The notes beneath the pieces are model-generated. The model was given only the letters and a program-made list of their open reading frames with translations. It was not told where the DNA came from and did not search any database. Position numbers and translations under genes: made by a program. From Candidatus Cloacimonadota bacterium (GTDB lineage: Bacteria; Cloacimonadota; Cloacimonadia; Cloacimonadales; Cloacimonadaceae): a stretch of DNA of 64,000 nucleotides. Positions 16,070 through 36,038 of this stretch are shown one piece after another. The number at the start of each line of letters is the position of its first letter. Positions within the stretch are counted from its first letter, which is position 1. The stretch covers positions 1-64,000 of the forward strand of contig JAKOXG010000001.1 of assembly GCA_029781115.1 (NCBI GenBank). Reading direction: 5' to 3'.

Positions 16070-16627
16070 CTATACCTCCTTTTGTTCTATGCTCACAAAT
16101 CTGTGATCACAGTAGCTGAGTTGTCCATTATCCCACTCTTGCAGGTAGTTTCTGCTCCTCAGTATCAAGCGGGATCTGTCTGAAATTTCCCTGGGACACC
16201 ATGCTTTGGGGACTTTCAGTTCAAAGCCACGGTCTTCCTTGATAACCATATAATCATCTGTAGCACCTTCTCCTTTCTTGGAGCCAATCAATATCTGCTC
16301 TGCTTCCACCACCGGGCAATCTTCACCCGGCTCATCTTTCCTGATGCGTCCCGTCAGGTAGTCTGCCTGGCCAAAGCCATCGTCAGCAGCAGCACGCCAG
16401 AGGTAGAGCTCCATCTCAGCGTTGAATAACCTCATGCTTTGGATGGTGTTAAAGGCTGGCAAAGCTTCCAGCTTGAAGCTTCCATCTGCATATTCACCCA
16501 AGCAGATCTTGTCGAAGCAGGTGATCATTACCTGATACTTGCCTTCAAGATACTGGTTCAACTGACCATAATCTATGATGTTATCTATGGGTGTTGTGTT
16601 TGATTTTATCTTACTGATTTCGTACAT
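16070..16627 (-). CDS. csx19: Csx19 (TIGR03984-like) type III-D protein
   Basis: 185 residues. The central part reads MRLFNAEMELYLWRAAADD..., then LTGRIRKDE, EQILIGSKKGEG and RGFELKVP. This matches my memory of the small Csx19/TIGR03984 proteins that accompany type III-D effector genes: a barrel with LFn...ElllWR and a gR motif. The role is not established. A structural subunit of the complex is the usual assumption. It overlaps the double-Cas7 gene by 17 bases and precedes the TIGR03986 gene by two, so the three are cotranslated. Confidence 0.65.
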   Translation of the reverse strand: MYEISKIKSNTTPIDNIIDYGQLNQYLEGKYQVMITCFDKICLGEYADGSFKLEALPAFNTIQSMRLFNAEMELYLWRAAADDGFGQADYLTGRIRKDEPGEDCPVVEAEQILIGSKKGEGATDDYMVIKEDRGFELKVPKAWCPREISDRSRLILRSRNYLQEWDNGQLSYCDHRFVSIEQKEV

Positions 16628-19506: not shown

Positions 19507-20213
19507 TTCTTTGCCTCCTTTAGTTCTTCTTTCAGTTTATCTGTCAGTGATTCGTCTCCCTTAAAGAGCTCTACCTTCACCTTACCAAAGCCCCGGTTTC
19601 TCTGGCTGCCGATCCTGCGCAACAACAAGGTAGCCATGCTCAAGGCATTCAAAAAGGCATCCTTATCCTTGTCTTCTTTATCAATGCGAAGATGGATCTT
19701 GCCGCAAAAGGTGAGCTTCTTGTTCAGTACTCTAATGGTGCGCAGGGAGTGGTCTTGAGCGGTTTTAGTCTCTTTGTCTATGGCTGTTTGGCTACGCAGG
19801 GTTGTGAAATGTTCCTGGATAATATGTGGGTTGAAGGCATTTCCAAAGCTGTCAAACAGGTAATTGAGCCAAGGATGGATATTCTCGTGCTCTTCTATCA
19901 TCAGGTTGTCAAAACTGATGGGAGCCCCGGTCAGGTTGTCAAAACTTGTGGGAGTCTCAGTGTCTTTGTCATCAACTCTTTTGCCAAATAGCTTCTTTAT
20001 ATGGTTTCCATCAAATTTACGCAGGTCTTTGATGGTATCCAGCTCGCTTAAGTCTTCTACCGCATTGCGGAAAAGGCCTTTGATCCTTTTGGCAGGGATA
20101 TAGGGAAGACCATATTGGTCAAACTCAATATCGCTGTCAATGGTCGCACCAAAGCTGCGGCCGGAGCCAATCTGCGTATCAGACAGTGTGGTTATTTTAA
20201 GTATCAGTTCCAT
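19503..20213 (-). CDS. Csm3-like Cas7 RAMP protein
   Basis: 236 residues, the size of a single Cas7 unit. The opening TTLSDTQIGSGRSFGATIDSD and GLPYIPAKRIKGLFRNAV give the first RAMP segment. Asp26 in the ATIDSD loop is placed like the catalytic Asp of Csm3, which cuts target RNA at six-base steps. RRIGSQRNRGFGKV near 199-212 is the glycine-rich loop. The acidic insert at about 80-110 contains SFDNL twice, ten residues apart, from a short internal duplication (about 19905-19955). It shares a base with cas10 and overlaps csx10 by four bases. Confidence 0.8.
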   Translation of the reverse strand: MELILKITTLSDTQIGSGRSFGATIDSDIEFDQYGLPYIPAKRIKGLFRNAVEDLSELDTIKDLRKFDGNHIKKLFGKRVDDKDTETPTSFDNLTGAPISFDNLMIEEHENIHPWLNYLFDSFGNAFNPHIIQEHFTTLRSQTAIDKETKTAQDHSLRTIRVLNKKLTFCGKIHLRIDKEDKDKDAFLNALSMATLLLRRIGSQRNRGFGKVKVELFKGDESLTDKLKEELKEAKK

Positions 20214-21673
20214 TATTCTCCTCCTGTGGGAATCAGATCCATCAATTCAATCATATCTGCATATATATTTTCTTGAGAGTCGATAGCACTGTCGTCATCT
20301 TCAAAGCCTTCCCTTGGCGGCTTCAAATCTCCTCTCGCTTCGATCTGCTTTATATATGCCTGTATTCCTGCTTCCGATCCAAAGAGTGCATCCCGCATTT
20401 CCTTTACTTTTGATCTGGGCCATAATTCCGGATCACTCAATTTCTTCGCGTTATTCATTTGGGCTTGCATATGATCGGCACTGTAAGGCTTCATATAAAG
20501 AACTCGTCCACCGGGCAAATGATACTGGCTCCTGATCATCTCCAAGGGATCGGTAGTGGAAGAATCCAAGAGCTGATAATCCAAGTATGGCGCATCGCTG
20601 CGTTTGTCCTTTCTCTTGTTTTTGGCACTGCGGCAGAGAGCCTGCGCCATCTGTTGGCTCTGGTAGAAGGGATAGCTTTCTTTGGCAATGGCAACTCCAG
20701 CGCAACAGCTATATTCTCCATTGGACAGCTCCTTGACCTTGTTTACATACTCCAAAGCCAGCGTGATTCCCAGCCTCGCCTCGCAGACGAAGGTCACGTC
20801 GTCACCACCGATGAAGATGGGCCTGATGGGGAAGAACTTCTTGTTCTCACCTTCTTTCACCCTTTTCAACCTGCCTTGGTAGTGTTGCCACTCTCCGTAA
20901 TTGATTTGATCTACCGTATACTGCACCAGATGGCTAAAGGCACGGCCAAATACGGCATCCACCTGCCCAGAAAGCTCTTTATATGCCTCAAAACTAGAGC
21001 ACTCGGCAAACTTCTTGCCCATATCATTGCCGTCGATATGAACAATGGCCAAGTAGGACTCCTCGCCCTTGAGCGTGCCCAGGCATTCAAAGTTGTCGGT
21101 AAAAGCAAAGTCGTTACCCAGTATACCTTGATACTCCTTCGCTATCTGACGGTTTGCCGCTTCGGAAGCATCACGCTTGGCTTTCACCACACTGGAGATC
21201 AGCTTGACTTTATTCTCCTCATCAGCATCAGCATCAATCTCCACATACTCGGCAGCATAGATGGAGGAGCTGCATTGAGCATTGATCCCGTGTGAGGGGA
21301 GCACGGTTTGTTGCCAGCGTGACTGTTTTTCTTTCTGTAACTTGTCCCAGAGTTGCTTGACCAGCTCTTGCTCTGTTTCGCCTTCTTGCCTCTCTGCATA
21401 GACGGCACCGAAGCTCAGACCGGGGCATTTCTCGATCGCCTTCCGGCTCAAATCCCGGATAATCTGCTCTGCCTCTTCTCTGCTTTTGCAACGGCAAAAC
21501 ATATTCCCGCCACCGATTACTACATCTTCGGGGCTTACATCCTCACTTCCGGCTTTTATCCCTTTAAAAAACGAGGAAACCAAAAATGAGGCACCAACGT
21601 TATCCTTCAAGCGGTTTGAGGAAAAAATATACCCCTGTATGGCTCGAAGGTCGACTAATAACAGGTAACTCAT
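20213..21673 (-). CDS. cas10: Cas10 with GGDD cyclase motif and no HD domain
   Basis: 486 residues, short for Cas10. It opens directly with MSYLLLVDLRAIQGYIF, the start of the first palm region, so the usual N-terminal HD nuclease is absent. The first palm shows AIVHIDGNDMGKKF (209-222). The second shows IRPIFIGGDDVTFV, with GGDD at 289-292, the site that makes cyclic oligoadenylate from ATP. A zinc-like Cys pair (FCRC) lies at 59-62. The C-terminal 100 residues are helical. The protein is therefore predicted to signal but not to cut DNA. The neighbouring CARF and SAVED proteins are candidate receivers of the signal. Confidence 0.85.
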   Translation of the reverse strand: MSYLLLVDLRAIQGYIFSSNRLKDNVGASFLVSSFFKGIKAGSEDVSPEDVVIGGGNMFCRCKSREEAEQIIRDLSRKAIEKCPGLSFGAVYAERQEGETEQELVKQLWDKLQKEKQSRWQQTVLPSHGINAQCSSSIYAAEYVEIDADADEENKVKLISSVVKAKRDASEAANRQIAKEYQGILGNDFAFTDNFECLGTLKGEESYLAIVHIDGNDMGKKFAECSSFEAYKELSGQVDAVFGRAFSHLVQYTVDQINYGEWQHYQGRLKRVKEGENKKFFPIRPIFIGGDDVTFVCEARLGITLALEYVNKVKELSNGEYSCCAGVAIAKESYPFYQSQQMAQALCRSAKNKRKDKRSDAPYLDYQLLDSSTTDPLEMIRSQYHLPGGRVLYMKPYSADHMQAQMNNAKKLSDPELWPRSKVKEMRDALFGSEAGIQAYIKQIEARGDLKPPREGFEDDDSAIDSQENIYADMIELMDLIPTGGE

Positions 21674-21685
21674 AACTACTCCTTC

Positions 21686-22963
21686 TTATTTCTTTATGAA
21701 TTTGATAATGTCTTTATAGATGTCTTTGTCTTTGAGGTCTTTTTCACCGTAAATCCTGTAGTAGGGGAAGGTGCTGCCCTTATACAGCTCCAACTCCTCG
21801 TCCAAATTTTCCCTGTTATCATTGTTCAAAAAGCTCATGATCACCATCTTGGTCTCATCGCCACCCATCTGACGTGCCCGATGAATGGCCTCAAAAGCCT
21901 TCTGCTTCACAACTCCTTTATCGTGTGAGGTTGTGACGGATATCACCGAAAGCTGATAGCCATAGATGATCACTATATCCAGTTGAAACCTGGCATCATC
22001 TCCCCAACTCACATCAAAATAGATGTCAATCTTGTCCTCTTGGGAACAGGCCGCCCGCAACTTCTCAACCACATAGTGCTCAAACCATTTTCCGTCCAGG
22101 AACTCAAAGATTTTTCTCCTCTTGTCCTTCCCGACCTCTTTTTCCAAGATGGCGGGATCTTTCATCGCCTTGATGGCCTCGTAAAGGCCCAAATCCCGCG
22201 CAGATTGTATCGCAGCTTCATGGCTGACGTCACTATCACTCTTCGGATTCAGGTACTTGCCAAAAGGGGTGTCGCGGAAGTCAGCCTTAGCCCGATCTCG
22301 CTCCTTCCCTGAGTCGCATGCACCACATCTGATAAACAGCTCAAAAAAGGGATGCTGACAACCGCCCAAGTGCTTATCAAACAGCTCATTCATTATTTTC
22401 GCAGCAGCATCAAAATCACTTTTCACATTTGCCCTGATATCTTCAATGCCATGCAAGCGAGCCAGATCATTGATCGATAGCCCATACCTGAGTCTCAGAT
22501 CTTTCTTGCATGGTGAGCCCATGTCTGTCTCCATCCGGTGTATCCTGGAATCCAGATAAGAGCTCTTGAGCGTGCAACCCAGCTCACATTGCATATGATA
22601 ATAGGTCAAGGTAGCCATAGCCTTGGTACCGCCCGTATAGTTTAAATGTGTGTCGCCTTCAAGCCTCAGCTCCTCTACAAAATCGCTAATAGCATCACCG
22701 TTGTTGATGTCTGACATCATTCTGAGCTTCACCGCCACACCATCCCTTTCCTTTTCCAGCGCATCTTTAATCCTGTCTGCGACGTCAGTCGTCTTGCTCT
22801 GTCTCTTGCCTATATTTTCTTTCGAGCACACCAGAAACACGGGATGTTTCTGGTATTCCTGCTCCAAATCTGGGCTGTCCTGATCCACATAGTGATCCAA
22901 CAGATACAGCGCACTGAGGTAGCAGGGCAGCGGGTTGGTGCCCACCAAAACGTAAATATTCAT
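21686..22963 (-). CDS. Card1/Can2-like CARF nuclease
   Basis: 425 residues. An N-terminal CARF domain starts LVGTNPLPCYLSALYLL and has HLNYTGGTKAM at 106-116, the ligand loop of the Card1/Can2 (DUF1887) group activated by cyclic tetra-adenylate. A C-terminal restriction-type domain shows GKWFEHYV (Glu295) and QLDIVII (Asp329). The third position reads ISVTTS (341-346), lacking the usual lysine of E/D-x-K. Related proteins with threonines at this place exist to my recollection, but the change could alter activity. It lies between cas6 and cas10, so it is made with the effector complex. It would cut RNA and/or DNA when Cas10 signals. Confidence 0.8.
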   Translation of the reverse strand: MNIYVLVGTNPLPCYLSALYLLDHYVDQDSPDLEQEYQKHPVFLVCSKENIGKRQSKTTDVADRIKDALEKERDGVAVKLRMMSDINNGDAISDFVEELRLEGDTHLNYTGGTKAMATLTYYHMQCELGCTLKSSYLDSRIHRMETDMGSPCKKDLRLRYGLSINDLARLHGIEDIRANVKSDFDAAAKIMNELFDKHLGGCQHPFFELFIRCGACDSGKERDRAKADFRDTPFGKYLNPKSDSDVSHEAAIQSARDLGLYEAIKAMKDPAILEKEVGKDKRRKIFEFLDGKWFEHYVVEKLRAACSQEDKIDIYFDVSWGDDARFQLDIVIIYGYQLSVISVTTSHDKGVVKQKAFEAIHRARQMGGDETKMVIMSFLNNDNRENLDEELELYKGSTFPYYRIYGEKDLKDKDIYKDIIKFIKK

Positions 22964-24154: not shown

Positions 24155-24976
24155 CTAACCAAATATCGCATCCCAGCCTTTTTTTGCCAGGTAACCAACC
24201 CCAACTGCGATAACCACCGGAGCACCCACGGTCAGAGCCGTAGCCGCTGCACCTGTTATCCCAACGGCAGCAACAGCAGAAGCCACCACCGCACCACCGG
24301 CAGTAGCGGCAGCCCCGGCGCCTGCTGCAGATAGTCCGCTTCCCACCGCTTCTTTTCCAACATCCAGAGCCACTTCACCCAAGTCTTTTTCGCCCTTGGA
24401 AAGGTCACGGATCCCTTTGACCACAGCGAAACCGGTTCCCACCACTGCTCCGGTCACGGCACCTCCTTTCGCCGCTGCACCGCAGGCTTTGGACAAGCCT
24501 TTGAACCCGGTAACACCTGCTTTGACTGCCATGGCCTGGGTTGTATTGGAGCTTATTCCCGAAGATTTGACCGTTTTTGAAATACCTTCCTTGGCAAACC
24601 TTGCACTCAGCTTGGCGGCAGTCTCCTTGGTTCCCACTATCGTTGCTGAATTGTACTGCCCGTTTTTAACCTGCCCGACTACCTTGCCGATCGAGTTGAC
24701 CGTATCTTTGGCCTGGATTCTGCCCACGATCTTGCCACCCTGTTTTACTACCACGTCCACCGTTTTGGCAGTGCTGCTCTTGGTGAGAGCAGCGTTTACA
24801 CCTTTGACCATGTTCACGGGGTTGTAGTTGATGCCATCCTTGATCATCACCTCGTGGATTACACCCTTGAGCTGTGGGTTGTTGCCCGCTCTTTTCAGGG
24901 ATTCGCTGATCACCTTGGCCTCGTAGCCGTGTTTGACCGCATTGTGAACGTGGACGTTTTTGGAACCTTTTTTCAT
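24155..24976 (-). CDS. Predicted PD-(D/E)XK-like protein with glycine/alanine membrane tail (copy 2)
   Basis: 273-274 residues from the ATG at 24976, chosen because an AGGAGG lies just upstream and the paralogue at 25637-26461 begins the same way. The N-terminal domain has IHEV with Glu42, TVDVVV with Asp74 and GRIQAKD with Gln88-x-Lys90. That spacing resembles the active site of small restriction-fold nucleases found in phage and mobile-element proteins. Residues of about 185-270 are Gly/Ala/Val-rich (SGLSAAGAGAAATAGGAVVA) and end in YLAKKGWDAIFG, a likely membrane-inserting glycine zipper. The fold reading is inference. The gene is about 80 percent identical by eye to its partner and is preceded by a matching small ORF. 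Confidence 0.7.
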   Translation of the reverse strand: MKKGSKNVHVHNAVKHGYEAKVISESLKRAGNNPQLKGVIHEVMIKDGINYNPVNMVKGVNAALTKSSTAKTVDVVVKQGGKIVGRIQAKDTVNSIGKVVGQVKNGQYNSATIVGTKETAAKLSARFAKEGISKTVKSSGISSNTTQAMAVKAGVTGFKGLSKACGAAAKGGAVTGAVVGTGFAVVKGIRDLSKGEKDLGEVALDVGKEAVGSGLSAAGAGAAATAGGAVVASAVAAVGITGAAATALTVGAPVVIAVGVGYLAKKGWDAIFG

Positions 24977-24977
24977 T

Positions 24978-25130
24978 TTAAGCCTCCTTTTTTTGCTTGG
25001 ATCGGAATTCCCTGAAGCTGATAGCCAGGATAAGACCTGCCAGCCCCCATGCATTTACAAAAGTGAAACCACCGCATTTGACACTGCTTTGCAGCGCATC
25101 GGAAACCTTTTTAAGTATGCCCTTAATCAT
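24978..25130 (-). CDS. Small membrane protein upstream of the copy 2 nuclease-like gene
   Basis: 50 residues from the ATG at 25130, which has AGGAGG at ideal spacing. A longer frame upstream lacks such a site. The sequence opens MIKGILKKVSDALQSSV and has one hydrophobic stretch (FTFVNAWGLAGLILAISF). The first 17 residues resemble those of the 68-residue ORF at 26458-26664 (ILKKVSAKVQSAV), so it belongs to the duplicated cassette. Its stop is one base from the next ATG. It could be an immunity or partner peptide; no family is known to me. Confidence 0.6.
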   Translation of the reverse strand: MIKGILKKVSDALQSSVKCGGFTFVNAWGLAGLILAISFREFRSKQKKEA

Positions 25131-25636: not shown

Positions 25637-26461
25637 CTAATCAAAGATCGAATCCCAGAACGATTTTATCAGGCAACCAACTCCCACCCCTATGGCAACT
25701 GGAGCTGCAACTATTAAAGCCGTAGCGGCAACGCCTGTCACTCCAGCCGCAGTTACGGCAGTTGCAACGGCTGCACCGCCGGCAGTAGCGGCAGCACCTG
25801 CGCCCGCTGCAGAAAGACCGCTTCCCGCCGCTTCTTTGACAACGTCTTTAACCACTTCTGTCCCGGCTTTGCTTCCATCTGCGAGCTCACTGATCCCCTT
25901 TACCACGGCGAAACCTGTTCCCACCACTGCTCCGGTCACTGCACTTCCTTTAGCCGCCGCACTGCAGGCCTTGGATAATCCGTTGAACCCGTTAACGCCC
26001 GCTTTGACTGCCATGGCCTGGGTTGTTTGCGAGCTTATCCCTGAGGATTTGACGGTCTTTGAAATACCATCCTTTGCGAATCTCGCGCTCAGCTTGGCGG
26101 CGGTCTCCTTGGTTCCCACCAGCGTTGCCGAGTTGTACTGCCCACTTTTCACCTGCTTGACTACCTTGTTGATCGAGTTTGCAGCATCTTTCGCCTGAAT
26201 TCGCCCAACTATTTTACCACCCTGTTTCACCACAATATCTACCGTTTGGGCTTTTGTACTCTCGGTAAGCGCGGCATTTACGCCTTTGACCATGTTCACG
26301 GGGTTGTAGTTGATCCCGTCCTTGATCATCACTTCGTGCACTATCCCCTTGAGCTGTGGGTTGTTGCCCGCTCTTTTCAGGGATTCACCGATCACCTTGG
26401 CCTCGTAGCCTTGTCTGAGGGTGTTATGGACGTGAATGTTCCTTGATCTTTTTCTTTTCAT
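25637..26461 (-). CDS. Predicted PD-(D/E)XK-like protein with glycine/alanine membrane tail (copy 1)
   Basis: 274 residues, paralogue of the product of 24155-24976. The same candidate active-site pattern is present (IHEV Glu, TVDIVV Asp, GRIQAKD Gln-x-Lys), followed by the Ala/Gly-rich hydrophobic tail (SAAGAGAAATAGGAAVATAVTAAG) and a C-terminal CLIKSFWDSIFD. Conservation is highest in the N-terminal 180 residues, while the segment around 195-215 differs (ELADGSKAGTEVV against DLSKGEKDLGEVA). The ATG overlaps the stop of the small ORF upstream by four bases. Function is unknown. A membrane-directed nuclease or pore-type toxin are both possible. Confidence 0.7.
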   Translation of the reverse strand: MKRKRSRNIHVHNTLRQGYEAKVIGESLKRAGNNPQLKGIVHEVMIKDGINYNPVNMVKGVNAALTESTKAQTVDIVVKQGGKIVGRIQAKDAANSINKVVKQVKSGQYNSATLVGTKETAAKLSARFAKDGISKTVKSSGISSQTTQAMAVKAGVNGFNGLSKACSAAAKGSAVTGAVVGTGFAVVKGISELADGSKAGTEVVKDVVKEAAGSGLSAAGAGAAATAGGAAVATAVTAAGVTGVAATALIVAAPVAIGVGVGCLIKSFWDSIFD

Positions 26462-27761: not shown

Positions 27762-28571
27762 ATGGCAAAGAAGTCTACCACGTTCGAAGCACGCTACAAA
27801 AGCTGGGTAAACAGTATTCCCAAGGAGGAGAGATCGCCCTTTGCCTTGGTAAACAAGATCAAGGAAAGGTACTTCGATCAACAGCCGAGCGATAATGAAG
27901 AAGATTACTTCCTGCTCATGTATTTTTTGCAATACAGGGCCAAGACAAAGTATACTGCTGCCGTAAAAGAAGGTTACCGGGCTCTGCTTATGGATCGGGT
28001 GGAAGTATATACAGAGATCACGAGCTGCGTTTTTGAGAGGTTTAAAAAAGCCTATCAGAAGCTTAAGGAGAACATGGTAGATGTGAAAGAGGATGGCAAG
28101 CCCGGATATCTCCATCGAGTATTGAAAAGAATGCTGACCCGGTGTGAGGGAACCTGGCTCAAAGATTACGTCTACTATTACAACGACAAGACGGAGCTTC
28201 CATCCTATGAGGGTGATATGTATGTGCCGCCTGAGCTTACTGAAGACGCCTCCTTTGCTCACCTGGATCTCCAATATACTGAGGAGCAAAACAAAGCCAA
28301 AGCCTTGGCGCAGTATATTCAGCAGGAGTGGGATTTTGAATGGCGCAATGTGCTCTGTGAATATCTGGATTGTTTGTATGACAAAAAGAGTCCAAGGCTT
28401 TCCGAGGAAAGTGAGGCCAATCTGCATAAGCTACACAGTAGAGTGAAAAAAGGTTGCGGGATCTGGTCGACAGAAACATTTGCACCAAAGAGGTGTTGTG
28501 CAAGATTGGATGGCACTATGAAAAAGAAATATGTCAGAAAACACCCATCTCGACCACATATAAACCGGTAA
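27762..28571 (+). CDS. ECF-like sigma factor, candidate CalpS (possible frameshift near the end)
   Basis: 269 residues as read. Residues of about 75-140 look like sigma region 2 (EVYTEITSCVFERFKKAYQKL, then GYLHRVLKRMLTR). About 165-232 look like region 4, ending LSEESEANLHKLHSRVKK, the recognition helix pattern of ECF factors. After this, at a run of six A (28446-28451), the frame turns into an unlikely Cys/Arg-rich tail. In the -1 frame the text continues naturally as RLRDLVDRNICTKEVLCKIG and stops at 28591, just before the next gene. The true product may thus end at 28591. AGAGGA precedes the ATG. It heads an operon with a putative inhibitor and a SAVED-Lon protease, which is the main reason for the CalpS reading. 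Confidence 0.65.
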   Translation: MAKKSTTFEARYKSWVNSIPKEERSPFALVNKIKERYFDQQPSDNEEDYFLLMYFLQYRAKTKYTAAVKEGYRALLMDRVEVYTEITSCVFERFKKAYQKLKENMVDVKEDGKPGYLHRVLKRMLTRCEGTWLKDYVYYYNDKTELPSYEGDMYVPPELTEDASFAHLDLQYTEEQNKAKALAQYIQQEWDFEWRNVLCEYLDCLYDKKSPRLSEESEANLHKLHSRVKKGCGIWSTETFAPKRCCARLDGTMKKKYVRKHPSRPHINR

Positions 28572-28601
28572 AGCAAAAAACCACTGAGTAACGAGGTGAA
28601 C

Positions 28602-29450
28602 ATGAAAAAGACAATTGACTACAAAGAAGCACTATTGGAGCTATACTTGGATTCCATCGAGGTAGAAAAAGATGACATCTTTGCAGATGGGTCCCATTAT
28701 GAAAGCCAAGGCCAAGTCTTGGGAAGCTTCCGTGAATTGGAGCACCAAGGCAAGATCGTTCTTTATCTGATAGCAGCAAAAGCTGAAGCTGGCTATCTCT
28801 GTTATAAGGCATCCATGTTTGAAGATTTCGCCGTGCCCACGGATATCATTGTCCCCGGGCTGGATGGCAACTATTTGGTGGATCCCTTCAACAAGTTTAC
28901 CCTAACTGAGGAAGAATTGGCTTCCAGCATGATGCTTTTCAGCTTGGATTTGCTGGACTTCATGGACTTCGAGGATGCTTTGGAGGCATTACCTGCGCAG
29001 CCGGAAGACGTTTTTCAAGACCTGAGCCTGGACAGTCCCGCAGCCCGCTTCCGCATCCAGGAATATGAGCTCAGCCTGGAATTCAGATCCAGGACGGCAT
29101 CACCTCAGCTCTGGATCCCGCAATTGGTATTTGATTTCCCTCTGCTCAAGGAGAAGCAATACAGCTTTGCAGCCGAGGAGCAAGACCTGTTGCAAGCCTT
29201 CAAGATGCTGAAGCAAGATAAATATGCCAAGAAGTTTTACACGCCCACGCACACCCTGGCGGTCACGGAGAAGGGCATGCTGGTCTTGATCCCCGACAAA
29301 CAATTTCACAACAAGGTCTGCAACATCTATTGCGGCGCATTCAAGGTATTTACCGGCCTTCCCAAAAAGGAGTTTTATGTGGGCAAGAGGATGCCCTACC
29401 CCTTGGCGGAAATACAGGAAATCTTAAACATCAGGATTGAGCCAATATGA
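28602..29450 (+). CDS. Candidate CalpT: protease-sensitive sigma inhibitor
   Basis: 282 residues from the ATG at 28602 (a GTG six bases earlier is possible; GAGG spacing favours the ATG). The predicted mass near 32 kDa equals that of CalpT as I recall it, which is cut by CalpL into pieces of about 23 and 10 kDa. The N-terminal 110 residues are strand-rich (GQVLGSFRELEHQGKIVLYLIAA, then a second set) and could be the MazF-like fold reported for CalpT. A strongly acidic linker follows (DFMDFEDALEALPAQPEDVF), then a second globular part. It lies between the sigma gene and the SAVED-Lon gene and overlaps the latter by four bases. Sequence alone would not name it; the call rests on context. Confidence 0.55.
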   Translation: MKKTIDYKEALLELYLDSIEVEKDDIFADGSHYESQGQVLGSFRELEHQGKIVLYLIAAKAEAGYLCYKASMFEDFAVPTDIIVPGLDGNYLVDPFNKFTLTEEELASSMMLFSLDLLDFMDFEDALEALPAQPEDVFQDLSLDSPAARFRIQEYELSLEFRSRTASPQLWIPQLVFDFPLLKEKQYSFAAEEQDLLQAFKMLKQDKYAKKFYTPTHTLAVTEKGMLVLIPDKQFHNKVCNIYCGAFKVFTGLPKKEFYVGKRMPYPLAEIQEILNIRIEPI

Positions 29451-30973
29451 AAGCCTTTTTGTTAGCAGTTGAGGCATATTTCCAAGACCCAGTAGAGGAG
29501 AAGTGCCAGAGCTTGGCCGGAGTTATCAGTAGGCTTACTGTTGGCAATGAAGACCTCCCCGCTCTGCTGAAACTGATACGGAGGGCAGCGCATGCACGCC
29601 TCCGACTGCTGGCCTTTTTGACCCTTAGACAAGCCGGCAAAATGCCTGCTGAGCTGCAACAGCTCTGGAATCTGGATGATATCCAACTGCAAAGCCTGCT
29701 TGAGGGCGAGTATAAACAAGCCAGATTTCCCATCGTGAACCCGCAGGGTGAAGCCCTGATGGCCGAGCTGTTTATCTTCACTTTTGAGGCCGAGCAGCCA
29801 AGGGCGATCTGCCTCAATCCTGCAGCTGCCGACGCCGCACAGGAACTGGCTGACATGTGTGGTTGCAGCTTCCTGATCGGCTTTGACGAAGACTTTGAAG
29901 GCAAATCCTGGCTCTGCGCCGCCTTGGCTGCTTTGAGGTGCAAAGATCAGGCAAAGCTGGATCTCCTTGCCTTCACTGGTGTGCTGGACGCCAACGGCAG
30001 GCTGATCCAGGCAGAAAACCTCGAGGCCAAACGCAGGATAGCCGAACAGTATGGCCTGCGCCTGATCAGCAGCCTGAAATCCCTACAGGAACTGGACTTT
30101 TTGTTGGGTGAAGAGCATTTGCCCCTACCCCTGATCCAATCAGCTACAGACAAAGCCGTTGCCTTAGACAGGCTGGCACACATGGAAACTGCCATCCGCA
30201 GCGCAAATCCTCATTTCAACCTGGCTGCCACGCTGGAAATGGGCGGCTTGCAAGCTGAAGACCTGCTCATCTTCCACGAGGGGCAGATCCCCTTTGAACC
30301 CGAGTACTGGCAAGAGTATTTGCAGACAAATGTAAAGCATAAGTTCGACTGGCTGCAATCCCGCTTCCCCGCACCCTGCCTCATCTGGTGTGCGGGCATG
30401 ATCACCAGCATGCAATTTGCCATCGGAGCCTACTTTGGCTTCAAAAGACCCATCTGCATCTGCCACTGGGATCCCACCCAGCAAAAATACCTCCCCCTGA
30501 TCCAACTCTATGGCGAAACCTCCACCCGCATCCTGAAAAATGTGCAGCTCCAGCCCGCAGATTTTCGCTATATCAACTACGAAACCGAAGCTCTGGAGGG
30601 TGAACCATCCACCGTGGCCTTGATCATCTACTTAGCCAGCCACAACCCCATTGGAGAAGCAAGACACCACGCCAAAACAGTACGTAATACCGAGGCTACC
30701 GTCATCATCACCCTCAAAAGTGGACAGGGACAGCTGCAAAACGACGATGATTGGCTCCTGGTAGCCCGCGAGATCTACTCCCTCATCAACCACCTCAAAA
30801 AAGACCACCTTTTGCAAAAGATGCTGATCTACCAAAGTGCACCCGCCGCGGTGTGTATGGCTCTGGGCATTGCTCTGGGACATTTTCTCGATATAGAAAT
30901 CATGCACTACGACGCCAGCAGCGATCCCAAATATCAAGCCATGTACAACCTGATGGATTTCCCACCCGCGTGA
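29447..30973 (+). CDS. SAVED-domain Lon-type protease, candidate CalpL
   Basis: 508 residues. The N-terminal 90 residues are helical. Residues of about 120-215 form a Lon-type (S16) protease core: EGKSWLCAALAAL with Ser154, AFTGVLDANGRLIQAENLEAKRRIA with Lys195. The 41-residue gap between them fits the Ser-Lys dyad. From about 300 to the end is a SAVED domain (LIWCAGMITSMQFAIGAYFG, VALIIYLASHNPIGEA, YQSAPAAVCMALGIALGH), which senses cyclic oligonucleotides. This architecture is that of CalpL, a type III CRISPR-linked protease activated by cyclic tetra-adenylate that cleaves an anti-sigma partner. There is no ATPase domain, as expected. Repeat sequence starts within 35 bases of the stop. Confidence 0.85.
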   Translation: MKAFLLAVEAYFQDPVEEKCQSLAGVISRLTVGNEDLPALLKLIRRAAHARLRLLAFLTLRQAGKMPAELQQLWNLDDIQLQSLLEGEYKQARFPIVNPQGEALMAELFIFTFEAEQPRAICLNPAAADAAQELADMCGCSFLIGFDEDFEGKSWLCAALAALRCKDQAKLDLLAFTGVLDANGRLIQAENLEAKRRIAEQYGLRLISSLKSLQELDFLLGEEHLPLPLIQSATDKAVALDRLAHMETAIRSANPHFNLAATLEMGGLQAEDLLIFHEGQIPFEPEYWQEYLQTNVKHKFDWLQSRFPAPCLIWCAGMITSMQFAIGAYFGFKRPICICHWDPTQQKYLPLIQLYGETSTRILKNVQLQPADFRYINYETEALEGEPSTVALIIYLASHNPIGEARHHAKTVRNTEATVIITLKSGQGQLQNDDDWLLVAREIYSLINHLKKDHLLQKMLIYQSAPAAVCMALGIALGHFLDIEIMHYDASSDPKYQAMYNLMDFPPA

Positions 30974-31318: not shown

Positions 31319-32857
31319 TTAAGTCAGTTTGTCTCTAAGCTTCTGCTCTACTTCGTTAAAAAACCACAAGTTGTTGCGTGTATACTTCTGGATTGAGCTC
31401 AACTGAGCTTTCAGACTAAAAGGAAACAACAGTTTTGCTCTATCTTCCACATCAAAATGCTTCTTCTGCACGTGGGTAACAAGCATGGCTTCACTCCAGG
31501 CACCACCATGTGAGAAGGTAGACCAGTTTTTGGATTTTACCACGTCACCCTCCAAGCCAAAGGTTTTGCACTCAAACACCAAGAGGGTTCCATGTGCTGT
31601 GACAAGCACCAGATCAAATTCCGCAAAGCTTTCCCGTTGCTTCACACCTGAGCTGTCATCTTCAGATTCTTCGGTGTCCAAACGATAGATCTCTACATTG
31701 CTGTAAAGGTGGTTTAAAAGGTCTTTATCAATGCTCTCAATGGTATCCCAGACCAGTACGGAAAACATATCTTCAAACAAGAAGCCTTTTCTCACATTCT
31801 CCAGACCCAGAAGCTTTTCCACGTCTGAATGCCGGATTTTGCCGTCAAGTTGGTGCTCGCGATCACGCCACTCATTGCACATTTCGAGGATCTCTTCTAT
31901 CTCAGCTTTGTTATCTATCAGGATTGGATCATCCCTTTCCAGATTGTCCATAAACAGACCCACCACTTTTTCTCTAAATGCACCCCAATATCTGCTGTAA
32001 GTGTCTTTGACATTAGGGATTATCTTTAGCTTGCCCCAAAGTGTTTTCAGATCACTTTTAGTGGGTTGACTTCCCGTGCCCAATGCTTCCTTCAGGTCCT
32101 CGATGGCCTCACTCGCTTTTTCAAATTGTTCGCTACTCACTGGATCTAGGGCATCTCTGCAGTCTTCCAAGTCGGGTCTGTTGGCTTTAACCAAGTCGCG
32201 TATCCGATCTGCGTCACTTTGCTTCTCATCCACCTTTACCTCCATGCGGCTAAAGTAGCTATACATGAGCTTGGCAAAGAGAGGTTTATTCAAAAACAGC
32301 TCGTTGATTTTGCGAAGATGCTCTTGGGGAAGGCTCAACTTATCTATATCTAACTTTTTGCAACGATTTTCACCTTCGTATTGTTGACAGGTATAGCCCT
32401 TTAGATTGAGTATATTCTCCATACTTACAGCATACCTTGGTTTGTAGGGATCCTCAGGCTCCAGACCCCTGAACTGCAACAAACGAAAAGGGTTACTGTC
32501 AGAGTAGATCAGTCTGTCTTCATCTCTATTGCGCTGTTGGTAGATCCTCAGCACCAAGAGGATTTGGCTTTTTTTGCCGCCGCTGATATTGAAATACACC
32601 TTGTCAAAGCAGCTCAACTCATTGCATATGTCTTCCGAAAGAGCTGCCAGGTCTGGTAGTTCATCCGGTATGTTCCAGATTCTCACCTGCTTCCCTTCTT
32701 TTTTCAGCACACGCTCCAGATTGGCACTCCAGCGTCTGTCACTGGCAAGGGCTGAAGATATAATCACCGCGGTGCACTCGCCAAATTCATGCATCAGCAT
32801 GGGCATTAGGTTCACCACGTTGTCACCTGTAGAGATCATCACCTGAGCTTGTTTCAT
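31319..32857 (-). CDS. Stand-alone CARF-PD-(D/E)XK nuclease (Card1/Can2-like)
   Basis: 512 residues from the ATG at 32857, preferred because GAGGATA precedes it and the CARF domain starts at once (VMISTGDNVVNLMPMLMHEF). The ligand loop FNISGGKKS is at 89-97. The C-terminal nuclease has all classical residues: GFLFEDMF with Glu362, EFDLVLV with Asp415, and FECKTF with Glu429-x-Lys431. The long helical middle is unlike the cas-operon CARF protein, so this is a distinct effector rather than a duplicate. Cyclic tetra-adenylate is the ligand usual for this group. It is transcribed alone, convergent with the Calp operon. Confidence 0.82.
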   Translation of the reverse strand: MKQAQVMISTGDNVVNLMPMLMHEFGECTAVIISSALASDRRWSANLERVLKKEGKQVRIWNIPDELPDLAALSEDICNELSCFDKVYFNISGGKKSQILLVLRIYQQRNRDEDRLIYSDSNPFRLLQFRGLEPEDPYKPRYAVSMENILNLKGYTCQQYEGENRCKKLDIDKLSLPQEHLRKINELFLNKPLFAKLMYSYFSRMEVKVDEKQSDADRIRDLVKANRPDLEDCRDALDPVSSEQFEKASEAIEDLKEALGTGSQPTKSDLKTLWGKLKIIPNVKDTYSRYWGAFREKVVGLFMDNLERDDPILIDNKAEIEEILEMCNEWRDREHQLDGKIRHSDVEKLLGLENVRKGFLFEDMFSVLVWDTIESIDKDLLNHLYSNVEIYRLDTEESEDDSSGVKQRESFAEFDLVLVTAHGTLLVFECKTFGLEGDVVKSKNWSTFSHGGAWSEAMLVTHVQKKHFDVEDRAKLLFPFSLKAQLSSIQKYTRNNLWFFNEVEQKLRDKLT

Positions 32858-33340
32858 AATAGTATCCTCTCTTGTTGTTTCTGTGACCTTGCGCTGAATC
32901 CCCACCCACTCTTGGTGGTGAAGCCCCAGTTTTGGGTCATCAACAGATAAAAAAGTTCTGACCGCACCCTCTACCTATTCCTTTTGAGGAAGTTTCCTCA
33001 AGGGCATGGAAGCTAAATCAAAACCCCTTTTTACGCGACTCCGTCCCACGCTAAAAACAAAGACCAAGCTGTCAATCAAAATCTCCCATCCATTGACCGC
33101 CGAAGGTAACTGGCATCTCTTTCGGCGGTTCAGCGACCGCCCGTACACTCCCGTCCGTAAATTCGTGTAATTCGTGGACTTTTATTCTTTATCCGTGAAA
33201 ATCCGTGCTCATCTGTGGACTCTTATCCTCTATTCGTGATTATTCGTGTGCATTCGTGGAAAAGAGAAACCCCCGAAACCAGCGCAGCGACTGACTACTG
33301 ACAACTGGCTACTGACGACTTGCCAGCGCAGCTGGCCAGC
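32858..33340. repeat. Intergenic region with repeat mosaic (33095-33340)
   Basis: 32858-33090 is unique and gene-free and must hold the promoter for the CARF nuclease gene. From 33095 the repeat words begin: TTTCGGCGGTTCAGCGACCGCCCG, AATTCGTGTAATTCGTGG (33160), several ATCCGTG and ATTCGTG phrases (33190-33260), then CCGAAACCAGCGCAGCGACTGACTACTGACAACTGGCTACTGACGAC leading into a half CRISPR repeat. Confidence 0.65.
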
Positions 33341-35874: not shown

Positions 35875-36038
35875 GGTCACATGCTTTCAGACGGACTGGA
35901 TATTTTTATTGCCCCTGGTCCAACTAAAGTCTCAATCCCCTCGAACGGGTCACATGCTTTCAGACTGGTTAAGAGTGCTAGTGCGGAAAGGGAGGATTTA
36001 AGTCTCAATCCCCTCGAACGGGTCACATGCTTTCAGAC

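Follow-up and report, generated by a model that had tools for sequence, protein, structure and literature searches.

Gene content of the locus

The window analysed in this work, a stretch of 64,000 nucleotides from a contig of a Candidatus Cloacimonadota bacterium, contains three consecutive genes on the forward strand, encoding products of 269, 282 (counted from the ATG) and 508 amino acids. The second and third are joined by an ATGA overlap, and the order and coupling of the genes are those described in the first-pass annotation, which was made from the DNA sequence without database searches. The features of this operon are:

27762-28571, forward: calpS-like gene in its assembled form, with a zero-frame product of 269 aa that is out of frame with its relatives after approximately 28451 (phmmer, alignment, frame-resolved profile)
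28446-28451, forward: A6 run, GTGAAAAAAGG, the site of the CalpS frame break, where one base is missing relative to the frame that all relatives share (alignment, profile)
28442-28591, forward: continuation of the CalpS C-terminus (RLRDLVD...CQKTPISTTYK) in the other frame, up to a stop at 28589-28591 (profile)
28602-29450, forward: calpT-like gene, encoding a MazF-like barrel (residues ~42-114), helices, a disordered linker and a CalpT10 domain (~207-282) (profile, AlphaFold2, Foldseek, PADLOC, hhalign)
29166-29177, forward: FAAE motif (CalpT residues 189-192), a candidate CalpL cleavage site and exposed C-degron (alignment, masses, model)
29447-30973, forward: calpL, encoding an N-terminal Lon-like protease and a C-terminal SAVED domain (~295-498) (PDB, Pfam, NCBIfam, PADLOC)

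A type III-D operon on the reverse strand lies upstream of these genes, which are convergent with the gene for the second of two CARF effectors:

16070-16627, reverse: Csx19 (TIGR03984, E 2.2e-22)
20213-21673, reverse: Cas10d, 486 aa, with GGDD at residue 289 (E 4e-108)
21686-22963, reverse: CARF-PDDEXK effector homologue (PADLOC CARF_PDDEXK, E 4e-70)
31319-32905, reverse: second CARF-PDDEXK effector homologue, with the motif FECK (PADLOC CARF_PDDEXK, E 9e-35)

The neighbouring operon, which also encodes Cas6, is marked as type III-D by Csx19, and no HD domain was detected in the 486 aa Cas10d, in agreement with the HD-less Cas10 and type III-D operon originally noted beside the Calp genes. 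Judged by the GGDD motif of Cas10d and by Csx19, the type III locus to which the Calp operon is linked has a putatively cyclase-competent Cas10, which would be the expected source of cyclic oligoadenylate.

Other features of the neighbourhood were also recorded. The CARF-PDDEXK homologue at 21686-22963 has SVT (ISVTTS) in place of the E-x-K usual for the nuclease motif, and may thus represent a variant or have lost nuclease activity. Between the III-D and Calp operons are two tandem paralogues on the reverse strand (24155-25054, 299 aa; 25637-26461, 274 aa), with DNA that is 72% identical over 300 nt, and hydrophobic, Ala/Gly-rich C-termini; neither had a Pfam match. Cas1, Cas2 and a CRISPR-associated primase-polymerase are encoded at 36.3-40.9 kb. 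Near cas1 and cas2, the repeat TCTCAATCCCCTCGAACGGGTCA occurs as two copies 73 nt apart (35930-36025), resembling a minimal CRISPR array, while isolated single copies further upstream (33396, 35519 and 35718) look like array remnants.

CalpL and its distribution

The 29447 product is, by sequence comparison, CalpL. In a PDB search, with matches spanning almost the entire protein, it matched the Cloacimonas CalpL structure 9EYI (E 2e-82), to which it is 33% identical, and it aligned with the Sulfurihydrogenibium CalpL (7QDA/8B0U) over residues 70-490 (E 2e-32), as well as matching PADLOC CRISPR-Lon (E 7e-78). The C-terminus carries a SAVED domain (Pfam PF18145, E 6.6e-14), while S154 and K195 align to S152 and K193 of the 7QDA chain, which we take to be the published catalytic residues, and are invariant in eight relatives. 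The initial description of a Lon-type protease, with a Ser154/Lys195 dyad, fused to SAVED was borne out by these comparisons. In addition, R361 and H399 align to the ring-nuclease residues R361 and H392 of Sulfurihydrogenibium CalpL, mutation of which strongly impairs ring-nuclease activity (PMC11417357). The window CalpL has 71 of the 100 residues that are invariant in other CalpLs, and no other proteins of the set are as divergent as those of the window.

A GTDB-wide pattern scan, which used two short motifs and so was not exhaustive, found CalpL only in Cloacimonadota and Persephonella, and a scan of viral contigs with CalpL found no relative. Within the phylum, CalpL was matched in nine of 125 genomes, in one case as a fragment; Cas10 was present in seven of the eight genomes with full CalpL, and the eighth is 72% complete. 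The S-T-L gene order is conserved in seven relatives, including a genome (G001) that we take to be Candidatus Cloacimonas acidaminovorans, the CalpL of which is identical to 9EYI. In three related genomes, the S-T-L operon follows rpoD, away from cas genes, and hence linkage to a type III operon is not obligatory. The operon lies directly after rpoD in the Syntrophosphaera-like genomes (L022 6344-11609; L024 6460-11723).

CalpT and a candidate cleavage site

Single-sequence searches returned no match for the 28602 product. A profile constructed from 13 relatives matched just one PDB sequence, CalpT10 (8b0u_D, E 3.4e-4), and PADLOC CRISPR-T was also matched (E 1.8e-4); alignment with a pair of Persephonella CalpT proteins by hhalign spanned the N-terminal 190 residues (E 8e-14). 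The AlphaFold2 model (pLDDT 82, pTM 0.79) consists of a beta-barrel at residues 42-114, followed by a helical stretch and a small C-terminal domain, with pLDDT below 50 in the linker at residues 181-194 and 200-205. Foldseek returned CalpT10 as the best match to this model (8b0u_C, E 4.6e-4, target TM 0.81), with MazF toxins next. By profile and predicted structure, the protein is CalpT, with the MazF-like domain, flexible linker and CalpT10 domain all present. CalpT is reportedly called a MazF homologue in its original description. With a mass of 32.5 kDa, a pI of 4.7 and a linker disordered in the model, it also fits the initial portrayal as a protein of about 32 kDa with an acidic linker.

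In other genomes, orphan open reading frames of approximately 100 aa match the CalpT10 domain only (L174 6855-7160 in G046; L175 346-663 in G048; L176 6264-6620 in G047), and sit in housekeeping gene neighbourhoods. A longer CalpT-like open reading frame of 437 aa (G019, L173 5836-9392) overlaps an upstream 307-aa frame without family assignment, and is followed by proteins of unknown family; the two overlapping frames are possibly another variant of the CalpS-CalpT pair.

At one aligned position in the linker, [FYLMK]-A-A-[AE] is found in all eight CalpL-linked CalpT proteins of the phylum, but is absent from the five encoded at CalpL-less loci, two of which have AA elsewhere in the linker (MFAAIP in L031, FRAAEA in L033). 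As the CalpL-less sequences group together in the S tree, these cases are not independent. Hence the sequences are suggestive of the motif being tied to the presence of CalpL, as a correlation among relatives that does not itself locate the cut site. In the window, the corresponding F189-A-A-E192 falls in the low-confidence linker of the model, and a cut after A191 would yield fragments with computed masses of 21.8 and 10.7 kDa, which agree with the 23 and 10 kDa pieces reported for CalpT (PMC12751052). The predicted N-terminal fragment would end in -FAA, resembling an ssrA-type degron and fitting the proposal that CalpT is degraded after being cut (PMC11417357).

CalpS identity

Searches with phmmer linked the first product to 11 relatives (E 1e-14 to 8e-5), and its homologues include the correspondingly placed gene of each of the seven CalpL operons found in relatives, as well as five CalpL-less CalpS-like genes. 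The sigma-2/sigma-4 match anticipated by the first-pass annotation was not found by Pfam, NCBIfam, PDB phmmer, PDB profile search or Foldseek, and an hhalign comparison of the CalpS family with 22 local ordinary ECF factors was not significant (P 0.06). The sole PDB phmmer match, to a hydrogenase subunit (E 0.005), was rejected as chance. A weak match of the family to Persephonella CalpS (hhalign P 6e-4, probability 29%) spans the C-terminal half, including a helix-turn-helix-like region. As the CalpS-position proteins of Persephonella have no sigma match in Pfam either, the family appears to be beyond the reach of the Pfam sigma models, making such searches a weak test. CalpS is assigned putatively, by family membership and operon position; of the proposed CalpS-CalpT-CalpL identity, it is the remaining two proteins that were recognised directly, CalpL through PDB and PADLOC, and CalpT through profile, PADLOC and Foldseek matches.

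That the first gene instead encodes some other helical protein, held by CalpT and able to bind DNA or protein, would explain why Pfam, PDB profile and Foldseek searches all lacked a sigma match, but is unlikely, given its homology to the CalpS-position gene in the Ca. C. acidaminovorans operon, the alignment of its C-terminal half with Persephonella CalpS, and the model of an intact relative, which has two helical domains with a flexible linker between them, as in ECF factors.

A frameshift in calpS as assembled

Rather than an intact ECF-like sigma gene, the first position of the operon holds a homologue that is frameshifted as assembled. A profile of the CalpS C-terminus matched the zero frame over positions 2-26 (E 1.4e-8), and the next frame over positions 27-70 (E 2.6e-9), with the switch at GTGAAAAAAGG leaving the last ~47 codons out of frame relative to every homologue. 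All 11 relatives in the alignment are intact, with one frame throughout. As assembled, the protein is without the last conserved helix and the CQxTPxSxTY tail, ending in an unrelated 40-residue tail instead of these ~47 residues. The stop of the other frame lies 10 nt upstream of the calpT ATG, and hence this is the ancestral calpS frame. The operon therefore cannot be described as complete, as had been claimed at first.

An assembly with widespread homopolymer errors was rejected as an explanation, because comparison of 105 other orthologous genes of the genome (107 kb) with relatives revealed no clear frameshift; the sole candidate was an overlap of N-terminal alignments, and was not convincing. 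Hence the assembly is not generally prone to frameshifts, although a single homopolymer error may account for the break.

The chances are about even that the frameshift is real and recent, such that the cascade no longer yields a working sigma factor in this genome. Transcriptional output would then be lost or altered, while CalpL may still temper other effectors as a cA4 ring nuclease. The frame break is seen in both alignment and profile, frameshifts are very rare elsewhere in the assembly, and no branch in the CalpS tree is longer than the window's terminal one (3.35, versus 0.99 for CalpT); that both flanks still match the family profile suggests decay is not far advanced. However, the difference is a single homopolymer base in one assembly, and conserved positions have mostly been retained (14 of 17 invariant positions). 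Long-term decay of CalpS, as might be read from the long branch, found no support in the loss of conserved residues, since the window CalpL is equally divergent.

Somewhat less probable is a sequencing or assembly error in an intact gene, which would make this an ordinary, complete Calp operon. The homopolymer site, the conserved CQKTP-STTY residues, which persist in the other frame, and the position of the other-frame stop (28589-28591), as expected just before the next gene of a tightly packed operon, all accord with such an error, but the 107 kb lacking a clear frameshift bounds the rate at approximately 3 per 107 kb, and a hit in a 0.8 kb gene is unlikely a priori. Bypass of a genuine frameshift by slippage, either transcriptional or through a one-base backward shift of the P-site tRNA-Lys on AAAAAA, would provide low, regulated levels of full-length CalpS, and after the second AAA the tRNA could indeed re-pair one base back on the A6 and go on at AGG in the conserved frame, but this is very unlikely, as an A6 run is short for slipping, and the frame is unbroken at this site in all 11 relatives.

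CalpS-CalpT pairs without CalpL

Five genomes encode CalpS and CalpT alone:

L029 7804-9539; L030 1374-3153; L031 10568-12449; L032 11553-13400; L033 3028-4870: CalpL-less CalpS-CalpT pairs

In these pairs, both proteins are homologous to those of the window, and their genes are adjacent and in the same order; unlike the window locus, they are without CalpL, mostly without a Cas10 in the genome (absent from four of the five), and without [FYLMK]AA[AE] at the aligned linker position. Four are divergent from a gene encoding ARPP (PF20208), and the other is upstream of one encoding an ADP-ribosylglycohydrolase. ARPP is present in all five of these genomes, 11 of the 125 in the phylum, and none of the eight with full CalpL. 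As CalpS-CalpT does not adjoin ARPP in the six other genomes with ARPP, the link is one-way. ARPP has been proposed to be part of ARG-centred antiviral ADP-ribose systems (PMC9503650). We tentatively suggest, with slightly less than even confidence, that CalpS-CalpT is a general sigma/anti-sigma module predating, or independent of, the CRISPR protease, which in Cloacimonadaceae also serves a predicted defence or stress module that processes ADP-ribose (ARPP, ADP-ribosylglycohydrolase), without CalpL, with the CRISPR version having gained a CalpL-cleavable [FYLMK]-A-A-[AE] linker.

Discussion

It is likely that the locus encodes a divergent Calp system, with a frameshifted sigma gene, operating as follows. 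On recognising foreign RNA, the type III-D Cas10 would make cA4, the probable ligand of the CalpL SAVED domain, binding of which would be accompanied by CalpL oligomerisation. The Ser/Lys Lon domain would cut CalpT in its disordered linker, most likely at F189-A-A-E192, generating pieces of ~22 and ~11 kDa, with a possible recognition signal for cellular proteases in the -FAA tail of the N-terminal piece. By analogy with the studied homologues, the sigma factor CalpS would be released. Degradation of cA4 by the SAVED domain is also probable. In this genome, the final release of a sigma factor would be compromised by the base missing from the A-run in calpS. That transcriptional reprogramming is a main output, as first envisaged, did not find support: genes for two homologues of CARF-PDDEXK effectors are present at the locus as well.

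A locus in which the sigma gene is frame-broken, with the protease and inhibitor intact, bears on whether CalpL is of use, perhaps as a ring nuclease, in the absence of its sigma factor. The relatives, meanwhile, make it possible to test both what the CalpL-less CalpS-CalpT pairs respond to, and whether the Ala-Ala linker motif places CalpT under CRISPR control. These pairs, found outside the window, are the less expected result, and a lead worth following.

The Calp system of Sulfurihydrogenibium sp. YO3AOP1 (7QDA, 8B0R, 8B0U; PMC11417357) shares with the window the CalpL architecture, the catalytic residues and the CalpT10 domain, whereas its CalpS is too divergent for significant pairwise similarity, and its linker motif differs. 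In the Persephonella relatives, the motif reads FVAG. The Ca. C. acidaminovorans operon is closer, having the same gene order in the same bacterial family, a CalpL with the S/K dyad and SAVED domain, and a CalpT with MazF-like and T10 domains as in the window, with the motif LAAA in its linker. The window differs in its frameshifted calpS and in its type III-D locus. In Ca. C. acidaminovorans, a gene for a CARF-adenosine deaminase comes after the operon (L026). The CalpL-CalpT-CalpS system of that species, including structures 9EYI, 9EYJ and 9EYK, is reportedly the subject of Smalakyte et al. 2024 (Mol Cell 84:4239). That paper is cited in PMC12751052. The window locus is a Calp member in a bacterial family for which the mechanism has already been published, adding a divergent operon to the group in which that mechanism was solved.
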